DNA from: Sulfuricurvum sp.
Lineage (GTDB): Bacteria > Campylobacterota > Campylobacteria > Campylobacterales > Sulfurimonadaceae
Direction of reading: 5' to 3'
Length of the DNA stretch: 45,390 nucleotides
NCBI GenBank assembly: GCA_030696285.1
Contig: JAUYSQ010000011.1
Span: 1 to 45,390 of the forward strand
A model generated the notes under the pieces. It was not told the origin of the DNA. It did not search any database and saw only the letters and a list, made by a program, of their open reading frames with translations. Made by a program: the position numbers and the translations under genes. How positions within the stretch are numbered: the stretch's first letter is position 1; each line of letters begins with the position of its first letter. Shown piece by piece: positions 8,604 to 45,285 of this stretch.

Positions 8604-8676
8604 GTCATTCCCGCGAAGGCGGGAATCCAGCTCTGCCTTTATAGGGATGGATCCCCGGGTCAAGCCCGAGGATGAC
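8604..8676. repeat. REP/MITE-like hairpin repeat, copy R1
   Basis: 73 bp bounded by GTCAT and ATGAC. Two hairpins are seen: ATTCCCGC/GCGGGAAT with loop GAAG (8607-8626), and an imperfect ATCC-CGGG/CCCG-GGAT arm (about 8650-8673). The first hairpin fits the pattern ATTCCC-N8-GGGAAT known from Neisseria dRS3 repeats. It fills the gap between rpoN and the next gene, and its final ATGAC supplies an ATG in that gene's frame. Confidence 0.8.
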
Positions 8677-32808: not shown

Positions 32809-33186
32809 TTATTTAACCGTTACTGCATCGTTAAAGAAAAGCTCTCGATTATTGTCAAAATTGGTTATTAATGTTTGGAAACATGCGGCAAGCTCTCGGA
32901 TGGTTTCGATATTGGGTTCGATATAAACTTTGTTTCCTTTTTTTTCGACGATAATAATCTTAGCCTCTTTAAGCTCTTTGATATGGGCGGAGATCGTTGG
33001 GAGGGAAAAATTAAAATGTTCGGCAACGGTACTGACGCAGGTAGCGATAGGGTTTACTTCAACCCCAGGTTGTTTTTTATCGAGAGAACACGTATATCCA
33101 CCCGTAAAGACATTTTTGAAAATCAGAAAACGTGTTTCATTGCTCAGGGCTTTGAAAATTTTTAATTTTTGTTCCATATCCAACAT
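32809..33186 (-). CDS. ArsR-family transcriptional regulator
   Basis: 125 residues (ATG 33186; an ATG three codons in is possible). A winged helix: KIFKALSNETRFLIFKNV, then HFNFSLPTISAHIKELKEAKIIIVEKKGNKVYIEP. The usual ArsR metal motif ELCVCDL is absent. An insertion between the first helix and the recognition helix instead holds cysteines in YTCSLDKK and IATCVST, which could sense thiols, sulfide or metal. It is followed by the porin gene two bases later. A palindromic site lies in the divergent region upstream, so it probably represses itself and its neighbours. Confidence 0.9.
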   Translation of the reverse strand: MLDMEQKLKIFKALSNETRFLIFKNVFTGGYTCSLDKKQPGVEVNPIATCVSTVAEHFNFSLPTISAHIKELKEAKIIIVEKKGNKVYIEPNIETIRELAACFQTLITNFDNNRELFFNDAVTVK

Positions 33187-33220
33187 AGATTACCTTTTTA
33201 TGGATGTTTTTTAAGTATTG

Positions 33221-33226
33221 ATTATA
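33221..33226 (-). promoter_or_regulatory. -10 element of arsR
   Basis: TATAAT on the minus strand 35 nt before the arsR start. The TTAGC-rich candidate operator lies directly upstream, across the -35 region. Confidence 0.5.
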
Positions 33227-33240
33227 GCATAAGATAAGTA

Positions 33241-33258
33241 TTAGCAAATTAGCTAATT
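33241..33258. promoter_or_regulatory. Candidate ArsR operator, site 1
   Basis: TTAGCAAATTAGCTAAT contains two TTAGC units 8 nt apart and the perfect 12-bp palindrome AATTAGCTAATT (33247-33258). It lies between divergent arsR and the periplasmic DsrE-like gene. Fifteen of 17 bases match site 2 at 33855-33871. Confidence 0.6.
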
Positions 33259-33290
33259 AGTAAATTTACATTATTTTTACATTGGGTGAT

Positions 33291-33296
33291 TATAAT
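33291..33296 (+). promoter_or_regulatory. -10 element of the periplasmic DsrE-like gene
   Basis: TATAAT 34 nt before the start at 33331. The AAAGG ribosome site follows. No -35 at canonical spacing. Confidence 0.45.
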
Positions 33297-33330
33297 GATA
33301 AACGTAAAATTATAATCCAAAAGGAATCGT

Positions 33331-33792
33331 ATGAAAAAATGGTTACTTATGCTCGCACTCTCAGCCGTTTTATGTGCAGAAGAAGGGGTAAAACAAGTTG
33401 TTTTCGATCTTAAAACGGGAAGTATCGAAACGTTTGAAAAGAAAGTGCTCCAAGGGATTGCCTATCATAAAAGTCATTATGAAGGGAAACTTGAAAAACT
33501 TGATGTGGCGGTTGTCATTCATGGTGATGCCTATAAGTTTTTCGTGAAAGATTTAAAAAACTCACCCTATAAAAACGATCAGAAACTCGCAGCGGCTCAT
33601 GATCAGCTGAGCAAACGGATCGCTGCGATGGCCGATACCTATGAAGTAGAGTTTTTAATGTGTGAAGCAACAATGAAAACATTGAAAATTGAGAAGAGCA
33701 ATGTGTATGATTATGTGAAATTAACGCCAAATTCAACCATCGGATTGATCGATAAACAAAACGAGCATTTTGCGTATATTCCGATTCACTAA
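33331..33792 (+). CDS. Periplasmic DsrE-like protein
   Basis: 153 residues with signal peptide MKKWLLMLALSAVLCAEEG. The mature part has the DsrE/F-like fold pattern: KQVVFDLKTGSIETFEKKVLQGIAYHKSHYEGKLEKLDVAVVIHGDAYKFFV, then KRIAAMADTYEVEFLMCEATMKTLKIEKSNVY. The single mature cysteine, in EFLMCEATM, is at the position where DsrE-like proteins often carry a sulfur-accepting residue. I infer a role in handling sulfane sulfur or thiols in the periplasm. It has its own -10 element and lies next to candidate operator site 1. Confidence 0.75.
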   Translation: MKKWLLMLALSAVLCAEEGVKQVVFDLKTGSIETFEKKVLQGIAYHKSHYEGKLEKLDVAVVIHGDAYKFFVKDLKNSPYKNDQKLAAAHDQLSKRIAAMADTYEVEFLMCEATMKTLKIEKSNVYDYVKLTPNSTIGLIDKQNEHFAYIPIH

Positions 33793-33816
33793 TCAGGATA
33801 AAGTGGACGTGAATCC

Positions 33817-33845
33817 TTGACAGATTATTTTTATTGTTATATCAT
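33817..33845 (+). promoter_or_regulatory. Near-consensus sigma-70 promoter of the rhodanese operon
   Basis: TTGACA (33817-33822), 17 nt, then TATCAT (33840-33845). This is the best sigma-70 promoter seen in the window. Candidate operator site 2 begins 10 nt after the -10 box. Confidence 0.7.
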
Positions 33846-33854
33846 ACAAACAAC

Positions 33855-33871
33855 TTAGCTATTTAGCTAAT
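33855..33871. promoter_or_regulatory. Candidate ArsR operator, site 2
   Basis: TTAGCTATTTAGCTAAT, 15 of 17 identical to site 1, at the expected transcription start of the rhodanese operon. A bound repressor here would block initiation or early elongation. Confidence 0.6.
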
Positions 33872-33895
33872 ATCTTAAGTATGTAGGAGTTGCAG

Positions 33896-34360
33896 ATGAT
33901 AAAGTTAAAAGTTGTACTAATGGTTGCGGGTTTGATGGTGGGATCGTCTCTCATTGCAGGAAATGCCGAAAGTGAAAAATTAATCAATGCGGCAAAACAA
34001 GAGGTAGGAGAGATGGCTCCAAAGCAGCTTAAAGAGATGTTGGATGCGGAAAAAAAAGTGATTATTTTAGACGTACGTGAGGAAAATCAGCGTGCTGAGG
34101 GGGAAATTTATGCTCTCAATATGCTTTCAATGACCCGTGGAAATTTGGAATTTGAAGTGCTGAATAAAATTAAAGATAAAAATACTGTAATTGTCACCTA
34201 CTGTCGGGGGGGAAGCCGTGGTGCATTGGCCGCTCAAACACTCAAAAAGCTTGGATATGTCAATGCAACAAACCTCAAAGGGGGCCTCAAGGGCTGGGCA
34301 GAAGAGGGGTATCCGATTGAAACCGGCTTAGGAATTACTCATTTGAGTAAAGAACAATAA
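33896..34360 (+). CDS. Periplasmic single-domain rhodanese
   Basis: About 154 residues from ATG 33896, which has AGGAG six bases upstream; the TTG at 33890 is in frame but less likely. The signal peptide runs through KVVLMVAGLMVGSSLIAGN. The rhodanese domain shows VIILDVREENQRAEGEI, the active-site loop YCRGGSRG with C103, and the closing NLKGGLKGWAEEGYPIE. It should move sulfane sulfur between donors and thiols in the periplasm. It heads an operon with a DsrE-like gene, dsbD and a thioredoxin gene. Confidence 0.88.
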   Translation: MIKLKVVLMVAGLMVGSSLIAGNAESEKLINAAKQEVGEMAPKQLKEMLDAEKKVIILDVREENQRAEGEIYALNMLSMTRGNLEFEVLNKIKDKNTVIVTYCRGGSRGALAAQTLKKLGYVNATNLKGGLKGWAEEGYPIETGLGITHLSKEQ

Positions 34361-34384
34361 ATACAACAAAGTAAGGAGAATACG

Positions 34385-34738
34385 ATGATTACCTTAATTT
34401 TGAATCACGAGCCGTATGACGGCAGTGACATCACCTACAATGCGCTCCGTTTGGCGAAAAACCTCCATAAAAATGGTGAAGAGGTCAATATATTTCTGAT
34501 GAATGATGCGGTCGATTTAGCGCGTCACATCTGTGTAAAACCTGAAATGTATGATTTTGATTTGCACGATATGCTCAAAAAAATGTATGAGCGCGGAGTA
34601 GGCATTCGTGCTTGCGGAACGTGCAATGCACGATGTGGGCTGTATAAAAACACCCCTTATTTTAGTGAAGAAATTAGCTCGACAATGGATCAGCTAACAA
34701 CTTGGGTCATAGAGAGTAAACACGTCCTAACGTTTTAA
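34385..34738 (+). CDS. Cytoplasmic DsrE-family protein
   Basis: 117 residues without a signal peptide: ITLILNHEPYDGSDITYNALRLAKNLHKNGEEVNIFLMNDAVDLA is the DsrE/F start. The cysteine cluster is C77-GT-C80-NAR-C84 in RACGTCNARCGL. Several sulfur-binding DsrE-like proteins carry a cysteine at about this place; three closely spaced ones could also bind metal. It pairs with the periplasmic rhodanese 24 nt upstream, which suggests sulfur transfer on both sides of the inner membrane. Confidence 0.85.
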   Translation: MITLILNHEPYDGSDITYNALRLAKNLHKNGEEVNIFLMNDAVDLARHICVKPEMYDFDLHDMLKKMYERGVGIRACGTCNARCGLYKNTPYFSEEISSTMDQLTTWVIESKHVLTF

Positions 34739-34778
34739 AAGTTATGCTAAAATGGTTGGATAATAATAAAGGGTAGAT

Positions 34779-36575
34779 ATGCGTTGGATAACAATGATAG
34801 TTTTTATGGTGATCAGTGTACTTGGGGTTAGCTTTCTCCAGCCTGATGAAGCATTTAAGCCAAAAATCACTGCTGTTGATGATGATACGGTGGCGGTAGA
34901 GATTGTCCTTGGAGATCAGATTTATCTCTATAAAGAGAAACTCAAAATTGAAGATATTGATGGGCAAGACGGGATTAATTTTACCACCATTAATACGGCC
35001 ACCAAAACAGTAGATCATGAAGGGGAGAAGGTTTATGAAGTCAGCCCGGTTACTCATATTGATCTAAGCAATAGCAAAGCGCTGAGCGGGGAACAAAAAG
35101 TTCGTGTCAAGCTCTCCTATCAAGGGTGTTCTTCTGCAGGGCTATGTTATGAACCGCAAGAGAGTGTTTTGGAGATTATGGTTGATGCAGATAAGCTAAG
35201 CGTTACAGATCCCTCTCATTTAAACGCTTCAGCTCTGATTGAGCCTAAAAAAGAGGTTGACCCTTCTAAAAACGGCTCTGAAACCGATCAAATTGCCAGC
35301 GTTATCCAAGGGGGGAGTTTGTGGTTTATCCTCATCAGCTTCTTTGGATTTGGACTGCTCCTCTCTTTGACCCCGTGTGTATTTCCGATGATTCCGATTA
35401 TTTCATCCGTTATTATTGCCCAGGGCGAGGGGATGGGGACAAAAAAAGCTTTTTGGCTTTCGCTGGTTTATGTTCTATCGATGGCAGTAGCCTACACGAT
35501 AGCGGGTGTTTTGGCGGGACTGTTTGGGGCTAATTTGCAAGCAGCGTTTCAGACACCGTGGATTATTACGGTATTTGCACTGGTTTTTGTCCTTTTATCC
35601 TTATCAATGTTTGATGTGTATGAACTTCAAATCCCTAATTTTATTCAATCGCGACTTTCTAAACTCGGCGGAGCGCGCAGTGGAGTTGCAGGTATCGCCA
35701 TTATGGGCTTTTTATCGGCGCTGATTGTGGGACCGTGTGTTGCTGCACCGCTTGCGGGAGCTTTGATTTATATTGGTCAAACAGGTGATGCATTGCTGGG
35801 GGGTATTGCGCTCTTTTCACTGAGTATGGGGATGGGTGTCCCCTTGCTTATTGTGGGGACTACGTCGGGTAAATTTATGCCGAAACCCGGAATGTGGATG
35901 GATGTAATCAAAGCGATTTTCGGGGTGATGCTGCTTGGTATTGCCATTTGGATGATGGGTCGTGTCTTGGATGAAAATACTACTTTATTGCTGTGGGGAG
36001 GATTGGCAATTTTTGTAGCGATTAATACGGGTGCATTAGAACCTCTGGGCGAACATCCTTCATGGAGTTCACGCTCCAATGTCAAAGCGCTTGGGTTTAT
36101 GATATTGCTGTATGGTATATCATTGTTGGCAGGAGGAATGGCGGGTGCTACAAATCTTTTGCATCCGCTTGATCCTTTTTTGAGGTCGGAGCAAGCACTT
36201 TCTGCTCCGGTGAGCGCGCATAAAACGTTTGAAAAAATCACTTCGATTGAAGAACTTGATGCGATTTTGGCAGAAAATAAAGGGAAACGTGTGCTGGTCG
36301 ATTTTTACGCCGACTGGTGTACTGCATGCAAAGAATATGAAGAAAAGACCTTTAGTGACGAAGCAGTTAAAACGGCTATGGATGCGTATGTGTTAGTACA
36401 AGTCGATGTTACGGCAAACGACGATGCTTCCCAAGCGATTACGAAAAAATACGGTATTTTTGGACCCCCCGCAATTTTATTTTTTGATGAAAAAGGGGTA
36501 AACAATGAGAGCGCAACGATTATCGGCTTCAAAGAGCCAAACGAATTTTTAGATCATCTAGGAGCGGTAAAATGA
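34779..36575 (+). CDS. dsbD: Thiol:disulfide interchange protein DsbD
   Basis: A 598-residue protein that carries electrons from cytoplasmic thioredoxin to the periplasm. All three modules are present. The N-terminal alpha domain (exported, ending near 150) has C117 and C123. The central eight-helix membrane domain has the redox pair C200 (LTPCVFP) and C320 (VGPCVAAP). The C-terminal thioredoxin domain has C514-TA-C517 in YADWCTACKEYEE. It lies 40 nt after the DsrE-like gene and overlaps the next thioredoxin gene by four bases, so its natural partner may be that protein. Confidence 0.95.
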   Translation: MRWITMIVFMVISVLGVSFLQPDEAFKPKITAVDDDTVAVEIVLGDQIYLYKEKLKIEDIDGQDGINFTTINTATKTVDHEGEKVYEVSPVTHIDLSNSKALSGEQKVRVKLSYQGCSSAGLCYEPQESVLEIMVDADKLSVTDPSHLNASALIEPKKEVDPSKNGSETDQIASVIQGGSLWFILISFFGFGLLLSLTPCVFPMIPIISSVIIAQGEGMGTKKAFWLSLVYVLSMAVAYTIAGVLAGLFGANLQAAFQTPWIITVFALVFVLLSLSMFDVYELQIPNFIQSRLSKLGGARSGVAGIAIMGFLSALIVGPCVAAPLAGALIYIGQTGDALLGGIALFSLSMGMGVPLLIVGTTSGKFMPKPGMWMDVIKAIFGVMLLGIAIWMMGRVLDENTTLLLWGGLAIFVAINTGALEPLGEHPSWSSRSNVKALGFMILLYGISLLAGGMAGATNLLHPLDPFLRSEQALSAPVSAHKTFEKITSIEELDAILAENKGKRVLVDFYADWCTACKEYEEKTFSDEAVKTAMDAYVLVQVDVTANDDASQAITKKYGIFGPPAILFFDEKGVNNESATIIGFKEPNEFLDHLGAVK

Positions 36576-36955
36576 ATAAGATAGTATTAGGGTTATCACT
36601 AATCGCCTCGTGTGCATTGGCAGAGATCAAGTGGGCACCCTCGTATGATGCCGCATTGGTTCAGGCTAAAAAAGAGAAAAAAAATGTCATGGTGATGTTC
36701 TCAAGAGAGGGATGCCCGGGATGTGAATACATGGAAGATGTTGTATTCGAAGAACCGGCGATTGAAGAGACTATTAACAAAGGATTCGTTCCCGTTCATA
36801 TAGATACCCAAAAAGATAAAATTCCGGCAGGGTTAGGGTATATCGGTACTCCAACTTTTCATTTTATCAATGCCAAAGGGGAGAAACTCAAACGTCATGA
36901 CGGCGGAGCGAATATCCCTACATTTATGGGAATATTAAACAGCGTTAAAAAGTGA
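36572..36955 (+). CDS. Periplasmic thioredoxin-fold protein
   Basis: 127 residues, signal peptide MNKIVLGLSLIASCALAEI, then a thioredoxin-like domain with the active site C48-PG-C51 in SREGCPGCEYMED and the cis-proline segment GTPTFHF. It resembles SoxW- or DsbD-partner-type thioredoxins. The four-base overlap with dsbD suggests that DsbD keeps it reduced. Possible clients are the periplasmic rhodanese and DsrE-like proteins or cytochrome thiols. Confidence 0.88.
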   Translation: MNKIVLGLSLIASCALAEIKWAPSYDAALVQAKKEKKNVMVMFSREGCPGCEYMEDVVFEEPAIEETINKGFVPVHIDTQKDKIPAGLGYIGTPTFHFINAKGEKLKRHDGGANIPTFMGILNSVKK

Positions 36956-40281: not shown

Positions 40282-40335
40282 GTCATTCCCGCGAAGGCGG
40301 GGATCTAGCTGGATTCCCGCCTTCGCGGGAATGAC
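40282..40335. repeat. REP/MITE-like hairpin repeat, copy R3 (perfect palindrome)
   Basis: 54 bp. The first 20 bases (GTCATTCCCGCGAAGGCGGG) and the last 20 are exact inverted copies with a 14-bp centre (40302-40315). Each arm is also a hairpin of ATTCCCGC/GCGGGAAT type. It sits between convergent genes. Confidence 0.85.
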
Positions 40336-40342
40336 GAGTGAA

Positions 40343-40864: not shown

Positions 40865-42271
40865 ATGAACATTTCAAGACGTGACTTATTTAAATTTGCT
40901 GGTCTTAGTGTAGCAGCAGCTGCAGTAACAGGATGTACCGCAACAACATCAAGTGCAGCGCCTTCAGCGCTCAATACAGCGAATAGAATGCTAGGACGTC
41001 ACCAAGTCGTTATTATTGGTGGAGGTTGGGGCGGTTTAACCGTTGCAAAAGAGCTCAAAAAAATTGATCCAAAATTTGATGTAGCGATTATCGAAAAAAA
41101 TGAGAGTTTTATGTCATGTCCGCTTTCAAACTGTAATCTTGGTGGCATTGAAGGCTTTAATCTTGGAACTTTGACGCATGATTACGATCAAGCAATCGAG
41201 AAAAACGGATATGGAATGTTGACGGCAGCAGTTACGGGAATTGACCGTGATGCAAAAGTAGTTCATACTTCTAAAGGTTCTGTCGGTTACGATATCTTAG
41301 TTATGGCTGCTGGTATCGACTACAACTATAAAGGACAATTCCCTACATGGGATGCAGCAAAAATTGCAAAAGCAAAACGGTTGGCTCCTGCTGCATTGAT
41401 TCCTGGCGGTGAACATATTTCATTGGATCGTATGGTTAAAAATATGGAAGACGGTGATGTTGTTATCACAGTTCCAGCGGGTAAATACCGATGTCCTCCT
41501 GCACCGTTCGAGCGTGCGAGCATGATTGCAAACTTCATGAAAAAAGAGGGAATTAAAGGTAAAGTAATTATCCTCAATGAAACGGCTGAAGTAGCTAAGG
41601 GTGCAGCGTTTAAAGAGTCTTGGAAAGAGATCAATGCAGGTGTTGTAGAGCATAATGATAATTGTAAAATCGTTGATGTCGATTTTGATAAAAAAGTTAT
41701 TACGTACGTTCAAACTGTTTTCGCTAACAAAGAAGATGTCGTCGGTGTTAAAACAACAAAAACACAAAGCTATGGTGTTTTCAACTTTATCCCACACAAT
41801 ATGTCTAACCCGGTCGTTGAAATGTCAGGTGTAGCAACAACTCCGGATGGTTTCAAGAAAGTTAAAATGGCAACCAGTGCTGAAAAACCGGTTTCATTCC
41901 AAACGGCTACCGATAAAAATGTTTATGCAGTAGGCGATATCGTCGGTCATGCGATCCCTCCAAGCGGACAGTCAGCGATCTGGTCAGGTAAAGAATGTGC
42001 AAAAGAGATTGCTCACGTTCTTCACGGTAAATCATACAGTGTAGCATCAGCTCTTCCGTACAAAAGTGCAAACGTTTGTTACTCTATGGTAAACGGCAAT
42101 CCGGAAGAAGCGATTATGGTTAACCATGAGTTTATGGTTGCTGGTCCTGTTATCGGAAGTAAAGGGAGTGTTCCAAAAGGAGATACCGTGAACGATAAAT
42201 TCCGTTCAGCAGGTCTTGGAAAAGCGACTCGTGATTGGTATGCTGGCGCTATGAGAGATTTGTTCAACTAA
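40865..42271 (+). CDS. fccB: Flavocytochrome c sulfide dehydrogenase-like flavoprotein (FccB type)
   Basis: A 468-residue exported flavoprotein. The N-terminus has a twin-arginine motif (SRRDLFKF), a hydrophobic stretch and a lipobox-like AVTGC, so it is probably a Tat-exported lipoprotein. The FAD fold starts HQVVIIGGGWGGLTVAKELKK. MSCPLSNC contains the cysteine where FccB proteins attach FAD. YRCPPAPFERA and NVCYSM carry the expected redox cysteine pair. AVGDIVGHAIPPSGQSA is the second FAD-binding block. It should oxidise sulfide or a related sulfur compound in the periplasm. A classical FccA dihaem partner is not adjacent; instead a Rieske-like gene and a c'-like cytochrome follow. The ribosome site is strong (AGGAG). 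Confidence 0.9.
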   Translation: MNISRRDLFKFAGLSVAAAAVTGCTATTSSAAPSALNTANRMLGRHQVVIIGGGWGGLTVAKELKKIDPKFDVAIIEKNESFMSCPLSNCNLGGIEGFNLGTLTHDYDQAIEKNGYGMLTAAVTGIDRDAKVVHTSKGSVGYDILVMAAGIDYNYKGQFPTWDAAKIAKAKRLAPAALIPGGEHISLDRMVKNMEDGDVVITVPAGKYRCPPAPFERASMIANFMKKEGIKGKVIILNETAEVAKGAAFKESWKEINAGVVEHNDNCKIVDVDFDKKVITYVQTVFANKEDVVGVKTTKTQSYGVFNFIPHNMSNPVVEMSGVATTPDGFKKVKMATSAEKPVSFQTATDKNVYAVGDIVGHAIPPSGQSAIWSGKECAKEIAHVLHGKSYSVASALPYKSANVCYSMVNGNPEEAIMVNHEFMVAGPVIGSKGSVPKGDTVNDKFRSAGLGKATRDWYAGAMRDLFN

Positions 42272-42284
42272 ACGCTACTCCCCC

Positions 42285-42338
42285 GTCATTCCCGTGAAGA
42301 CGGGAATCTAGCTGGATACCCGCCTTCGCGGGTATGAC
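42285..42338. repeat. REP/MITE-like hairpin repeat, copy R4
   Basis: 54 bp, same plan as R3 but with paired changes: ATTCCCGT/ACGGGAAT (42288-42307) and ATACCCGC/GCGGGTAT (42316-42335). Both stems remain perfect. Its final ATGAC contributes an in-frame ATG upstream of the Rieske-like gene. Confidence 0.85.
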
Positions 42339-42399
42339 GAGAAATTTTACAAAAAACCTGCTAAACTTCAATACACAAAATCATTCACACGGAAACATC

Positions 42400-43128
42400 A
42401 TGGAAAGAAGAAATTTTTTAAAAGTAATTGCTGCAAGCGCAACCGTTGTTGCAGTGAGTCCATCTCTCATACGAGGAAATCTATATGCAGCCGATGGAAA
42501 TCTCTATCGTGCGTATGAAAAAACACAGCTTATCGGAGCTGATGGAAAGCCGATTTTGGCTTCGAAACTTGAAACAGAAGTCAATTATCTTTTTAATTAT
42601 CCTTATGCTTCAACCCCTTGTTTATTAGTAAACCTTCCAAAACCTACTGCAACAGATGTCGAGTTAACGTCTGAAATGGGAGAAAAGTACATTTGGAAGA
42701 GCGGTGTAGGTAAAAATCGTACGATCGTTGCCTTTGTGGCTATTTGTACTCATCAGCTCACTCATCCGACGCCAAGTGATAGTTTTATCATGTATGTCCC
42801 TGAAAAAACCAAAACGATAGCGTATGAAAAAAGCGGTATTATTGTTTGCTCGTCGCATATGTCAGCCTTTGATGTTCATGCAGGGGCAAAAGTCCTTGGA
42901 GGGGCAGCCACTCAGCCACTTTCAGCGGTTGTTTTGGAACACGCAGCGGATGACACCCTTTGGGCAGTGGGTATTTTAGGTTCCGATAAATTTCAAGATT
43001 ATTTCAAGGCATTTAAACCGGAGCTTAAACAGTTTTACAATGGACCCGCGGAAGCGAAAAAACTCGTTTCTATTTCGGCAAAAACAGTCAAGCTGACTGA
43101 GTTTTCCAAAGAACTAATTCAGTACTAA
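42400..43128 (+). CDS. Tat-exported Rieske-like [2Fe-2S] protein
   Basis: About 242 residues from ATG 42400, giving the twin-arginine start MERRNFLKVIAASATVVAVSPSL. The frame extends to 42334, but that ATG is the end of repeat R4. Rieske ligands are read as C-T-H in AICTHQLTHPTP and C-S-S-H in IVCSSHMSAFDVHAG; the second box lacks the usual CPCHGS form. The latter part has LGGAATQPL, as in Rieske domains. The neighbours suggest it passes electrons between the FccB-type flavoprotein and a cytochrome. It is not part of a cytochrome bc1 operon here. Confidence 0.82.
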   Translation: MERRNFLKVIAASATVVAVSPSLIRGNLYAADGNLYRAYEKTQLIGADGKPILASKLETEVNYLFNYPYASTPCLLVNLPKPTATDVELTSEMGEKYIWKSGVGKNRTIVAFVAICTHQLTHPTPSDSFIMYVPEKTKTIAYEKSGIIVCSSHMSAFDVHAGAKVLGGAATQPLSAVVLEHAADDTLWAVGILGSDKFQDYFKAFKPELKQFYNGPAEAKKLVSISAKTVKLTEFSKELIQY

Positions 43129-43134
43129 CTGTTC

Positions 43135-43218
43135 GTCATTCCGTGCACAGTTTGTCATTCCGTGCTACGACACGGAATCCACAAATGCTAATGGATCCCG
43201 TATCAAGTACGGGATGAC
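43135..43218. repeat. REP/MITE-like hairpin repeat, copy R5
   Basis: Full copy 43154-43218 with ATTCCGTG-ctacga-CACGGAAT and GATCCCGTA-tcaag-TACGGGATG arms, bounded by GTCAT and ATGAC. A truncated GTCATTCCGTGC copy stands just before it at 43135-43146. Confidence 0.75.
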
Positions 43219-43254
43219 GAGAGATTAAATATCAAACCCCCTAAAGGAGAAAAA

Positions 43255-43698
43255 ATGAAAAAACTTTTAACCACACTTGTACTTTCAGCAGTGTTGGCTG
43301 CCTCGGTAAATGCCGCTAACAAGGTAAATGGTCAAAGTAAGGCAGCTGCTCAAACAGACCATAAAACAATGTTGATGAAAGATATGCGTACTATGCTCGA
43401 TGCTATGGAACAGATTCAGCGCGGCGGATTGTACAGCTCAACTGAGGATATGAAAGCAGGAGTCAAAAAACTCCAAGGGACGCTTAAATCACTAGAGAGC
43501 GAAGAGGTAAAATGGATTTTGCCAAAAGATCAGGTGTATGCATACCAATTTGCTCAAAAATCAGCAAGTATGCTCCGTCTCTATTCAAACGATATGATTG
43601 TTTCCATCGAAGCGGGGCGAATGGATGATGCACTAGAGGATTATAATCAACTTCTAAAGCAATGTACATCGTGTCATATTCGTATTCGTAACTGGTAA
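43255..43698 (+). CDS. c'-like cytochrome with C-terminal haem site
   Basis: 147 residues. Signal peptide MKKLLTTLVLSAVLAASVNA. The mature protein is predicted all-helical and ends with the haem motif C137-TSC-H141 followed by IRIRNW. A single CxxCH within ten residues of the C-terminus of a helical bundle is the mark of cytochrome c'/c-556-like proteins. The upstream repeat R5 separates it from the Rieske-like gene, but its own AGGAG site makes independent translation easy. It is a plausible electron acceptor or gas-binding partner of the FccB/Rieske pair. Confidence 0.8.
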   Translation: MKKLLTTLVLSAVLAASVNAANKVNGQSKAAAQTDHKTMLMKDMRTMLDAMEQIQRGGLYSSTEDMKAGVKKLQGTLKSLESEEVKWILPKDQVYAYQFAQKSASMLRLYSNDMIVSIEAGRMDDALEDYNQLLKQCTSCHIRIRNW

Positions 43699-43989: not shown

Positions 43990-45285
43990 ATGAAATTAGG
44001 AAAATTAAGTCTAGTAGCTGTATTGGCTCTTGGAACAAGCGCGTTTGCTATCGATAACGTAAAAGTAAACGGTGAAGCTAAGCTGTGGTATCAAACATCA
44101 GAATTTTCTGGACAAGGTGCTGGTGCAACCACATCACAAGATTTTTTTGATCATAATACTAATTCAGTGGCTGAGGTGAAATTGAGCGTTGGTGCAACTG
44201 CAGATTTGTTACAAAATCTTAGTGCTGGTGTAAAAATGACTGCCCTTACAACACTTGGTCTTGAGAACAATCTTGTAGGTGCAGTACCTGCAGCTAAATT
44301 TACGAGCGCTGGAACATCTGCTGGAGCTGCTCAGTTAGATGATCAATCATGGGTAGAAGAAGCTTACTTGGCTTACACAATGGGTAAAACAACAGCTAAA
44401 ATTGGTCGCCAAGCATTAAGTACGCCGCTTGCATTTACAGAAAACTGGAACGTTGTTGACAATACATTTGAAGCAGCTGTTTTGTTAAATAATGACCTTC
44501 CTGATACAACATTGGTTGGTGCATGGGTTGGAAAACATAATGGTGTAGGCTTACTTCAGCCAACTGCAGGTCGTGGAACTACAGTAGCTTATAGTGGTGA
44601 TTTCAGCACATTTGCAACAGATGGTGCGTATGCATTTGCTGCTGTAAATAAATCAATTCCAAATACTACACTACAAGCTTGGTATTATGATGTTGTTCAG
44701 GTTGCTGATGCGTATTGGTTACAAGCTGATGCAAAAGTTATGGACATGGTTAATGTTGGTGTTCAATATGCAGGTATGGATCCGAAACTTGCATCAAGCG
44801 GAACTTCAGATAGAAGCACTGATGTGCTTGCAGTTAAAGCTGCTGTTGATGTTGCGGGTGTAAATCTTTATGCAGCATATTCAACTGTTGGTGCTGGTAC
44901 TTTAGGATTTGCAAACGTTGCGACGGGTGATAAATCAAGCGTGTATACTGCACTTGGTAGTGTTTACATGGATGGTGAGATCGCTGCGGCGCCGGATACT
45001 GATACATGGAAAATCGGTGCTTCTACTAAAATGGTTCCGGGTGTATCATTGTCTGCAAGTTATGCGCAAGCAGAAACGGGTAGCAATGGTGGAACAGCAG
45101 GTGCTATAGCAGGGGCTAGTACTCTTAATACTGATTTCACCGCATGGGACGTTATTGCCAATACTAAAGTTGGACCACTTGACGTGACAGCTATCTATAC
45201 TCAGTTTGATAAAGATGTTAAAGCAACAGATACAACTGATAAAACAACAGATACTCTCCGTATTATTGCTTCTTTGAAATTCTAA
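43990..45285 (+). CDS. Major outer-membrane porin (OprD-like, Campylobacterota type)
   Basis: 431 residues. Signal peptide MKLGKLSLVAVLALGTSAFA, then VNGEAKLWYQTSEF as the first strand. YLAYTMGKTTAKIGRQALSTPLAFTENWNVVDNTFEAAVL is the porin landmark also seen in the OprD-like gene at 31562. It ends TLRIIASLKF. It is rich in Ala, Thr and Gly, with codon use looking more restricted than in neighbouring genes, as expected for a highly expressed protein. It has a strong ribosome site (AAGGAGA) and a GC-rich terminator, so it is a single-gene, high-output unit. Confidence 0.9.
   Translation: MKLGKLSLVAVLALGTSAFAIDNVKVNGEAKLWYQTSEFSGQGAGATTSQDFFDHNTNSVAEVKLSVGATADLLQNLSAGVKMTALTTLGLENNLVGAVPAAKFTSAGTSAGAAQLDDQSWVEEAYLAYTMGKTTAKIGRQALSTPLAFTENWNVVDNTFEAAVLLNNDLPDTTLVGAWVGKHNGVGLLQPTAGRGTTVAYSGDFSTFATDGAYAFAAVNKSIPNTTLQAWYYDVVQVADAYWLQADAKVMDMVNVGVQYAGMDPKLASSGTSDRSTDVLAVKAAVDVAGVNLYAAYSTVGAGTLGFANVATGDKSSVYTALGSVYMDGEIAAAPDTDTWKIGASTKMVPGVSLSASYAQAETGSNGGTAGAIAGASTLNTDFTAWDVIANTKVGPLDVTAIYTQFDKDVKATDTTDKTTDTLRIIASLKF

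Follow-up and report, generated by a model that had tools for sequence, protein, structure and literature searches.

What accepts the electrons of an FccB-type flavoprotein when no FccA subunit is encoded beside it? Flavocytochrome c sulfide dehydrogenase (FCSD) is defined by its haem subunit FccA, which is of the dihaem or the monohaem class I type. Many sulfidic habitats are dominated by Campylobacterota, and the FccB genes of these bacteria are listed under 'flavocytochrome c', with no electron acceptor known for them. The question is raised by a stretch of 45,390 nucleotides from Sulfuricurvum sp. (GenBank assembly GCA_030696285.1, contig JAUYSQ010000011.1; hereafter the window), in which no FccA gene was found beside fccB, and co-directional genes for a Rieske protein and a small c-type cytochrome follow it. 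A sequence-only reading of the window had proposed that the three products form one periplasmic redox module. The genes lie at the positions given by that reading, the sole shift being the Rieske start, from 42334 to 42400:

40865 to 42271, plus strand: fccB, encoding the FccB-type FAD flavoprotein P0001, with Tat signal, lipobox, FAD-linking Cys85 and catalytic Cys210 and Cys405
42285 to 42341, no strand: palindromic repeat of 57 nt between fccB and the Rieske gene, with a second copy (91%) at 40282-40338
42400 to 43128, plus strand: gene for the Tat-exported, AioB/SoxL2-like Rieske [2Fe-2S] protein P0002, with ligands C116/H118/C150/H153 and no cluster disulfide
43129 to 43230, no strand: repeat-rich insert between the Rieske and cytochrome genes, its ends approximate and set by eye (about 10 nt in relatives)
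43255 to 43698, plus strand: gene for the small, exported monohaem c-type cytochrome P0003, a b562/c'-type four-helix bundle with predicted His141/Met44 ligation

The flavoprotein comprises 468 amino acids and bears the twin-arginine motif SRRDLFK and the lipobox VTG-C24. A profile search matched its FCSD_central domain at E 1e-24 (87.3 bits against a cut-off of 27), and together these features confirm the FccB with Tat signal and lipobox described earlier; the C-terminal domain, FCSD-flav_bind, scored 20.7, below the cut-off of 26. Among solved structures its best relative was 5n1t, an FCSD flavin subunit (E 1e-44), with 1fcd and 3vrd also matched. When its cysteines were compared with these structures, as the sequence-only reading had proposed, Cys210 and Cys405 aligned with the known FCSD catalytic pair, and both are invariant in all 105 of 105 FccB homologues. 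The FAD-linking Cys85 is present in 56/56 proteins of the window's FccB lineage and in 13/28 of the other Rieske-linked lineage, and the lipobox in 42/56 and 8/28, respectively. Tethering through a lipidated flavoprotein, suggested by the earlier reading, is by these counts not conserved; as predicted from the lipobox, membrane attachment of FccB would be frequent, not defining. We further found a single FccB in the window genome, the other match in a search of its contigs being SQR-like; a dihaem FccA paired with this fccB would have spoken against the proposal. No dihaem FccA neighbour was found among the Rieske-linked loci inspected, nor beside any FccB inspected, and a small monohaem c-type cytochrome adjoins three FccB genes that have no Rieske neighbour.

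The Rieske reading frame opens at 42334, and the conserved start, with the Tat motif MERRNFLK, lies at 42400. The ligand set C116-x-H118/C150-x-x-H153 is invariant among 19 aligned Rieske proteins and the pattern C-x-H...C-x-x-H was found in 81/81, which together with the Tat motif upholds the assignment of a Tat-exported Rieske-like protein. The cysteine pair forming the bc1 Rieske disulfide was found in none of the 81. The missing disulfide points to a predicted potential of the module Rieske below that of bc1 Rieske proteins. The closest Rieske relatives of the window protein are 93-95% identical Sulfuricurvum-type proteins, and the nearest named types by sequence are SoxL2, AioB and the Sulfolobus SoxF Rieske. 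Scores stayed below cut-off for TIGR02694 (AioB; 50 bits, cut-off 95.65), TIGR03171 (SoxL2; 83.1 bits, cut-off 582.1) and Pfam Rieske (16.6, cut-off 20.3), and none of the family profile models names either the module Rieske or the module cytochrome. The AlphaFold model of the Rieske protein (pLDDT 83) had AioB as its best match (Foldseek E 3e-7), and also matched the Sulfolobus SoxF Rieske and a Thermus Rieske.

The cytochrome, of 147 amino acids, has a Sec-type signal and a CTSCH motif six residues before its C-terminus. Its predicted model (pLDDT 87) is a four-helix bundle resembling cytochromes b562 and c'. Structural alignment gave Z about 14 to b562 and to Kusta0087/0088, a fold match that by itself is modest evidence, since helical bundles easily reach Z about 13. 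This alignment placed residues 38-145 on residues 1-106 of b562, so that Met44 coincides with the b562 ligand Met7 and His141 with the ligand His102. All 79/79 cytochromes have Met44, the two CxxCH cysteines, His141 and Arg145. Because Met44 and His141 occupy the b562 ligand positions in the model and never vary, the protein is more likely a low-spin His/Met electron carrier than a high-spin c'. The c'-like cytochrome with terminal CxxCH of the sequence-only reading was right in predicted fold and in the motif near the end, but probably not in haem type, the predicted His/Met ligation differing from the typical high-spin form. At the profile level, a match to cytochrome c' reached E 7e-4, and Cytochrom_C_2 gave weak matches in 19/20 members (14.3 for P0003, below the cut-off of 26.5). 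Aligning the cytochrome family by HMM with b562 of E. coli yielded nothing useful over the full length, and the ligand positions are those of the structural alignment.

Linkage of the three genes was then assessed in an order sample of 150 genomes and a larger sample of 399, in which the Rieske gene was present in 20/150 and 50/399 genomes. In the order sample, fccB lay in the same cluster as the Rieske gene in 20/20 Rieske-bearing genomes. Across 84,980 species genomes, 242 Rieske relatives were found. In the best 80 of these 242 loci, which were read, FccB was found within 3 kb of the Rieske gene in 76/80 and the cytochrome in 65/80; for the 47 loci flanked by 2.5 kb or more on each side, the counts were 45 and 39. 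With F for FccB, R for Rieske, C for cytochrome and Y/Z for SoxY/SoxZ, the gene orders included F-R-C, F-Y-Z-R-C, R-C-F, F-R-Y-Z and R-F. Since the order varies, the linkage is not frozen synteny, and it spans many families and genera with differing flanks. The co-occurrence of FccB in 20/20 genomes and 45/47 complete loci supports the single module of the earlier reading, and shows it to be conserved. Occurrence of the Rieske and cytochrome genes apart from fccB, which that reading had named as contrary evidence, is almost never seen for Rieske; cytochrome homologues do occur elsewhere, notably directly behind cytochrome bc1 genes in five genomes. This is a second context with a Rieske-containing chain. 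The bc1 operon of several Campylobacterales (L129 4318-7369; also L127, L128, L065, L066, L069 and L080) ends with such a cytochrome homologue, behind a dihaem c subunit.

The linkage has exceptions. In one Sulfuricurvum locus (L137 5989-6729), a lone Rieske gene stands in its usual place with fccB and cytochrome cleanly missing, and the genome has no FccB match. In another (L167), Rieske and cytochrome genes occur without FccB within 3 kb, but FccB is encoded elsewhere in the genome. In some lineages the cytochrome gene is not adjacent to the FccB-Rieske pair. Tetra- and pentahaem cytochrome genes (L094 7846-8910, L095 7921-9105) lie near FccB-Rieske-SoxYZ clusters without the small cytochrome, and may stand in for it. 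Those source genomes that carry a taxon name are Campylobacterota, apart from one 'Petrimonas' bin (Bacteroidota); the contig concerned (L149) bears a Sulfuricurvum-like cluster and is probably misbinned.

A comparison of trees revealed that the FccB partner has been exchanged. In the FccB tree, built by a quick method, the Rieske-linked proteins fall into two distant lineages, one of them often with SoxYZ neighbours. In the Rieske tree, a single clade (100/98 support), mostly Sulfuricurvum, contains loci of both kinds: the FccB belongs to one lineage in 19 and to the second in 14. This mixed Rieske clade, set against the deep FccB split, indicates that the Rieske-cytochrome pair retained a neighbouring FccB through a swap of FccB. 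In Sulfuricurvum sp. PC08-66 (G089), the cluster carries an FccB of one lineage, and an FccB of the other is encoded by itself at another place in the genome. Linkage maintained through shuffled order and FccB switching is strong evidence of functional coupling.

The repeats between the module genes, also noted in the sequence-only reading, are real, and comprise the 57-nt palindrome pair and a different repeat in the Rieske-cytochrome insert. The gap between the latter two genes is 126 nt in the window, compared with a median of 10 and a maximum of 42 nt in 60 relatives, so the window repeats are local insertions into an otherwise tight pair. The REP-like palindromic repeat recurs intergenically at 40282-40338, 42285-42341 and 8610-8625, and its half-site has 5 matches in the window, where 0.24 are expected by chance. 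Downstream of the cytochrome gene lies an OprD/Opr-type porin gene (43990-45285), a homologue of which occupies the equivalent place in Sulfuricurvum sp. PD_MW2 (L082 3430-4743). A few kb upstream of fccB, positions 32809-36955 hold genes for an ArsR-type regulator, a rhodanese, a DsrE-like protein, DsbD and thioredoxin, a set with a possible role in periplasmic sulfur or redox handling.

Taken together, these findings lead us to propose that Campylobacterales have a conserved sulfide dehydrogenase module in the periplasm, in which electrons pass from flavin to Rieske cluster to cytochrome. We give this reading a probability of roughly 0.6; sulfide as the substrate, the order of the carriers and a stable complex are what we infer. 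The FCSD-type FccB would oxidise sulfide to sulfur or polysulfide by means of its cysteine pair and FAD, the AioB/SoxL2-type Rieske protein would stand in for the haem subunit FccA as electron acceptor, and the four-helix His/Met c-type cytochrome would take them from the Rieske protein and on towards terminal oxidases. In arsenite oxidase, the Rieske subunit AioB hands electrons from the oxidoreductase to cytochrome c, and the order flavin, Rieske, haem is suggested by this analogy. If this is true, the kind of Rieske outlet found in arsenite oxidase also serves a flavin sulfide dehydrogenase, and the Rieske-cytochrome pair names a likely acceptor chain for FccB and predicts its redox partners. 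Sulfide is the presumed substrate by analogy with the FCSD family and with DhsU1, an active enzyme with a Rieske neighbour according to PMC3504083. Against our reading count the locus without FccB and cytochrome (L137) and the second FccB lineage, about half of which is without the FAD-linking cysteine; so do the SoxYZ genes of some clusters and the Rieske-free activity of DhsU1 and SoxF, both taken up below.

Where SoxYZ lie inside the cluster, they hint at a different substrate, SoxY-bound sulfur. The module could then serve Sox, with FccB acting on this sulfur (loading sulfide-derived sulfur onto SoxYZ, oxidising it as SoxCD otherwise would, or restoring SoxYZ to activity in the manner of SoxF), and with Rieske and cytochrome as carriers; we regard this as possible, if rather unlikely. 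SoxY and SoxZ (Pfam) lie inside the cluster in 7/20 genomes and 14/80 loci (best 80 of 242), in several lineages, but they are missing from it in most loci, the window's included, and some genomes with SoxYZ in the cluster gave no SoxB match. The window genome encodes SoxXYZAB with no SoxC over the cut-off, its sox cluster residing on contig C281, away from fccB; SoxYZ adjoin FccB in part of the relatives. SoxB is enriched in Rieske-bearing genomes (odds ratio 4.3, p 4e-6; 399 genomes, kinship ignored). Among SoxB genomes, SoxC is rarer with Rieske than without (17/32 versus 87/102, p 4e-4, kinship ignored), yet more than half of the genomes with both Rieske and SoxB possess SoxC, and over all 399 genomes no association was found (19/50 versus 121/349, p 0.64, kinship ignored). 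The idea that the module generally replaces SoxCD had good support in the 150 genomes (2/9 versus 28/35, tallied by hand); it weakened in the 399 and was given up as a rule, surviving only as part of the Sox reading. The matter bears on sulfur handling in Sulfuricurvum, reported to be without soxCD (PMC4288042). A Rieske-wired sulfide dehydrogenase might even hand the sulfur it forms straight to SoxYZ; sulfide would then enter the Sox cycle without quinone and, where SoxCD is absent, the flavin-Rieske-haem chain would oxidise it; this we consider doubtful.

FccB could also reduce a soluble cytochrome c directly, as a monomer like SoxF or DhsU1, with Rieske and cytochrome co-regulated for another reaction, e.g. 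as a stand-alone carrier pair. Recombinant DhsU1 alone does reduce cytochrome c, and since neither DhsU1 nor SoxF needs a Rieske partner to reduce horse cytochrome c (PMC3504083), the module Rieske may be dispensable for electron transfer from FccB. Many Campylobacterales FccB genes have no Rieske neighbour, and the locus with Rieske and cytochrome at a distance from FccB fits as well. It is difficult to see, however, how linkage could stay near-universal through a change of FccB lineage and shuffled order if the proteins were not functionally coupled, and we hold direct reduction to be distinctly improbable. That the three genes are adjacent by chance or simple shared descent, with no functional meaning, would accord with the shared flanking genes of close Sulfuricurvum relatives; linkage in many families with different orders and flanks refutes it in practice, leaving it a negligible likelihood.

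Among known systems, SoxF (Paracoccus pantotrophus, Chlorobaculum tepidum) is a monomeric, FccB-like flavoprotein with a link to Sox, and module relatives contain SoxYZ; the window fccB differs by lying outside the sox cluster. To our knowledge, SoxF has not been described with a Rieske partner. AioB and archaeal SoxL2 are the nearest Rieske relatives by sequence and fold, and are exported Rieske domains of the same type, but the module Rieske falls under the family cut-offs, its two ligand pairs are separated by a longer loop, it carries an additional helical part at the C-terminus, and no molybdenum subunit AioA was found among its neighbours seen. The module cytochrome shares the predicted four-helix fold with cytochromes b562, c', c556 and Kusta0087/0088, and has a C-terminal CxxCH. 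It differs from c', which is high-spin, in its predicted His/Met ligation, sequence similarity being weak, and from native b562 in its covalent haem.

Earlier papers record Fcc homologues for Sulfuricurvum, Sulfurovum and Sulfurimonas (PMC4288042, PMC10066037 and PMC12403661), the second of them calling the Sulfurimonas enzyme non-canonical. In open-licence papers, nothing turned up on a Rieske protein alongside flavocytochrome c or a sulfide dehydrogenase, either in Campylobacterota at large or in Sulfurimonas, and the accessible portions of these papers and of PMC3504083 do not describe the module of three genes, how widely it occurs, the exchange of FccB partners or the cytochrome type. The earlier remark that no described system with this set was known holds, in these portions, for the three genes together, but not for a Rieske gene beside an FccB-type gene, which PMC3504083 reports. 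There, a Sulfurihydrogenibium relative has a Rieske gene between two FccB-type genes, DhsU1 and DhsU2, with sox genes alongside, and DhsU1 is an active monomeric sulfide dehydrogenase. Compared by description only, this cluster shares with ours the FccB-type enzyme beside Rieske, and has a cytochrome-like gene upstream and sox downstream; it differs in belonging to Aquificota and in having two FccB copies, and its Rieske is mentioned, not discussed as an electron partner. With FCSD itself (FccAB of Allochromatium vinosum and Thioalkalivibrio; 1fcd, 3vrd, 5n1t), the module shares the flavoprotein fold and family, the catalytic cysteines, the periplasmic location and Tat export, and the window protein has the predicted FAD-linking Cys85; in place of an adjacent FccA it has a Rieske protein and a four-helix cytochrome. 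As the defining haem subunit is missing, the module is an FCSD variant and not a member of FccAB, with partial precedent in the Sulfurihydrogenibium relative (PMC3504083).
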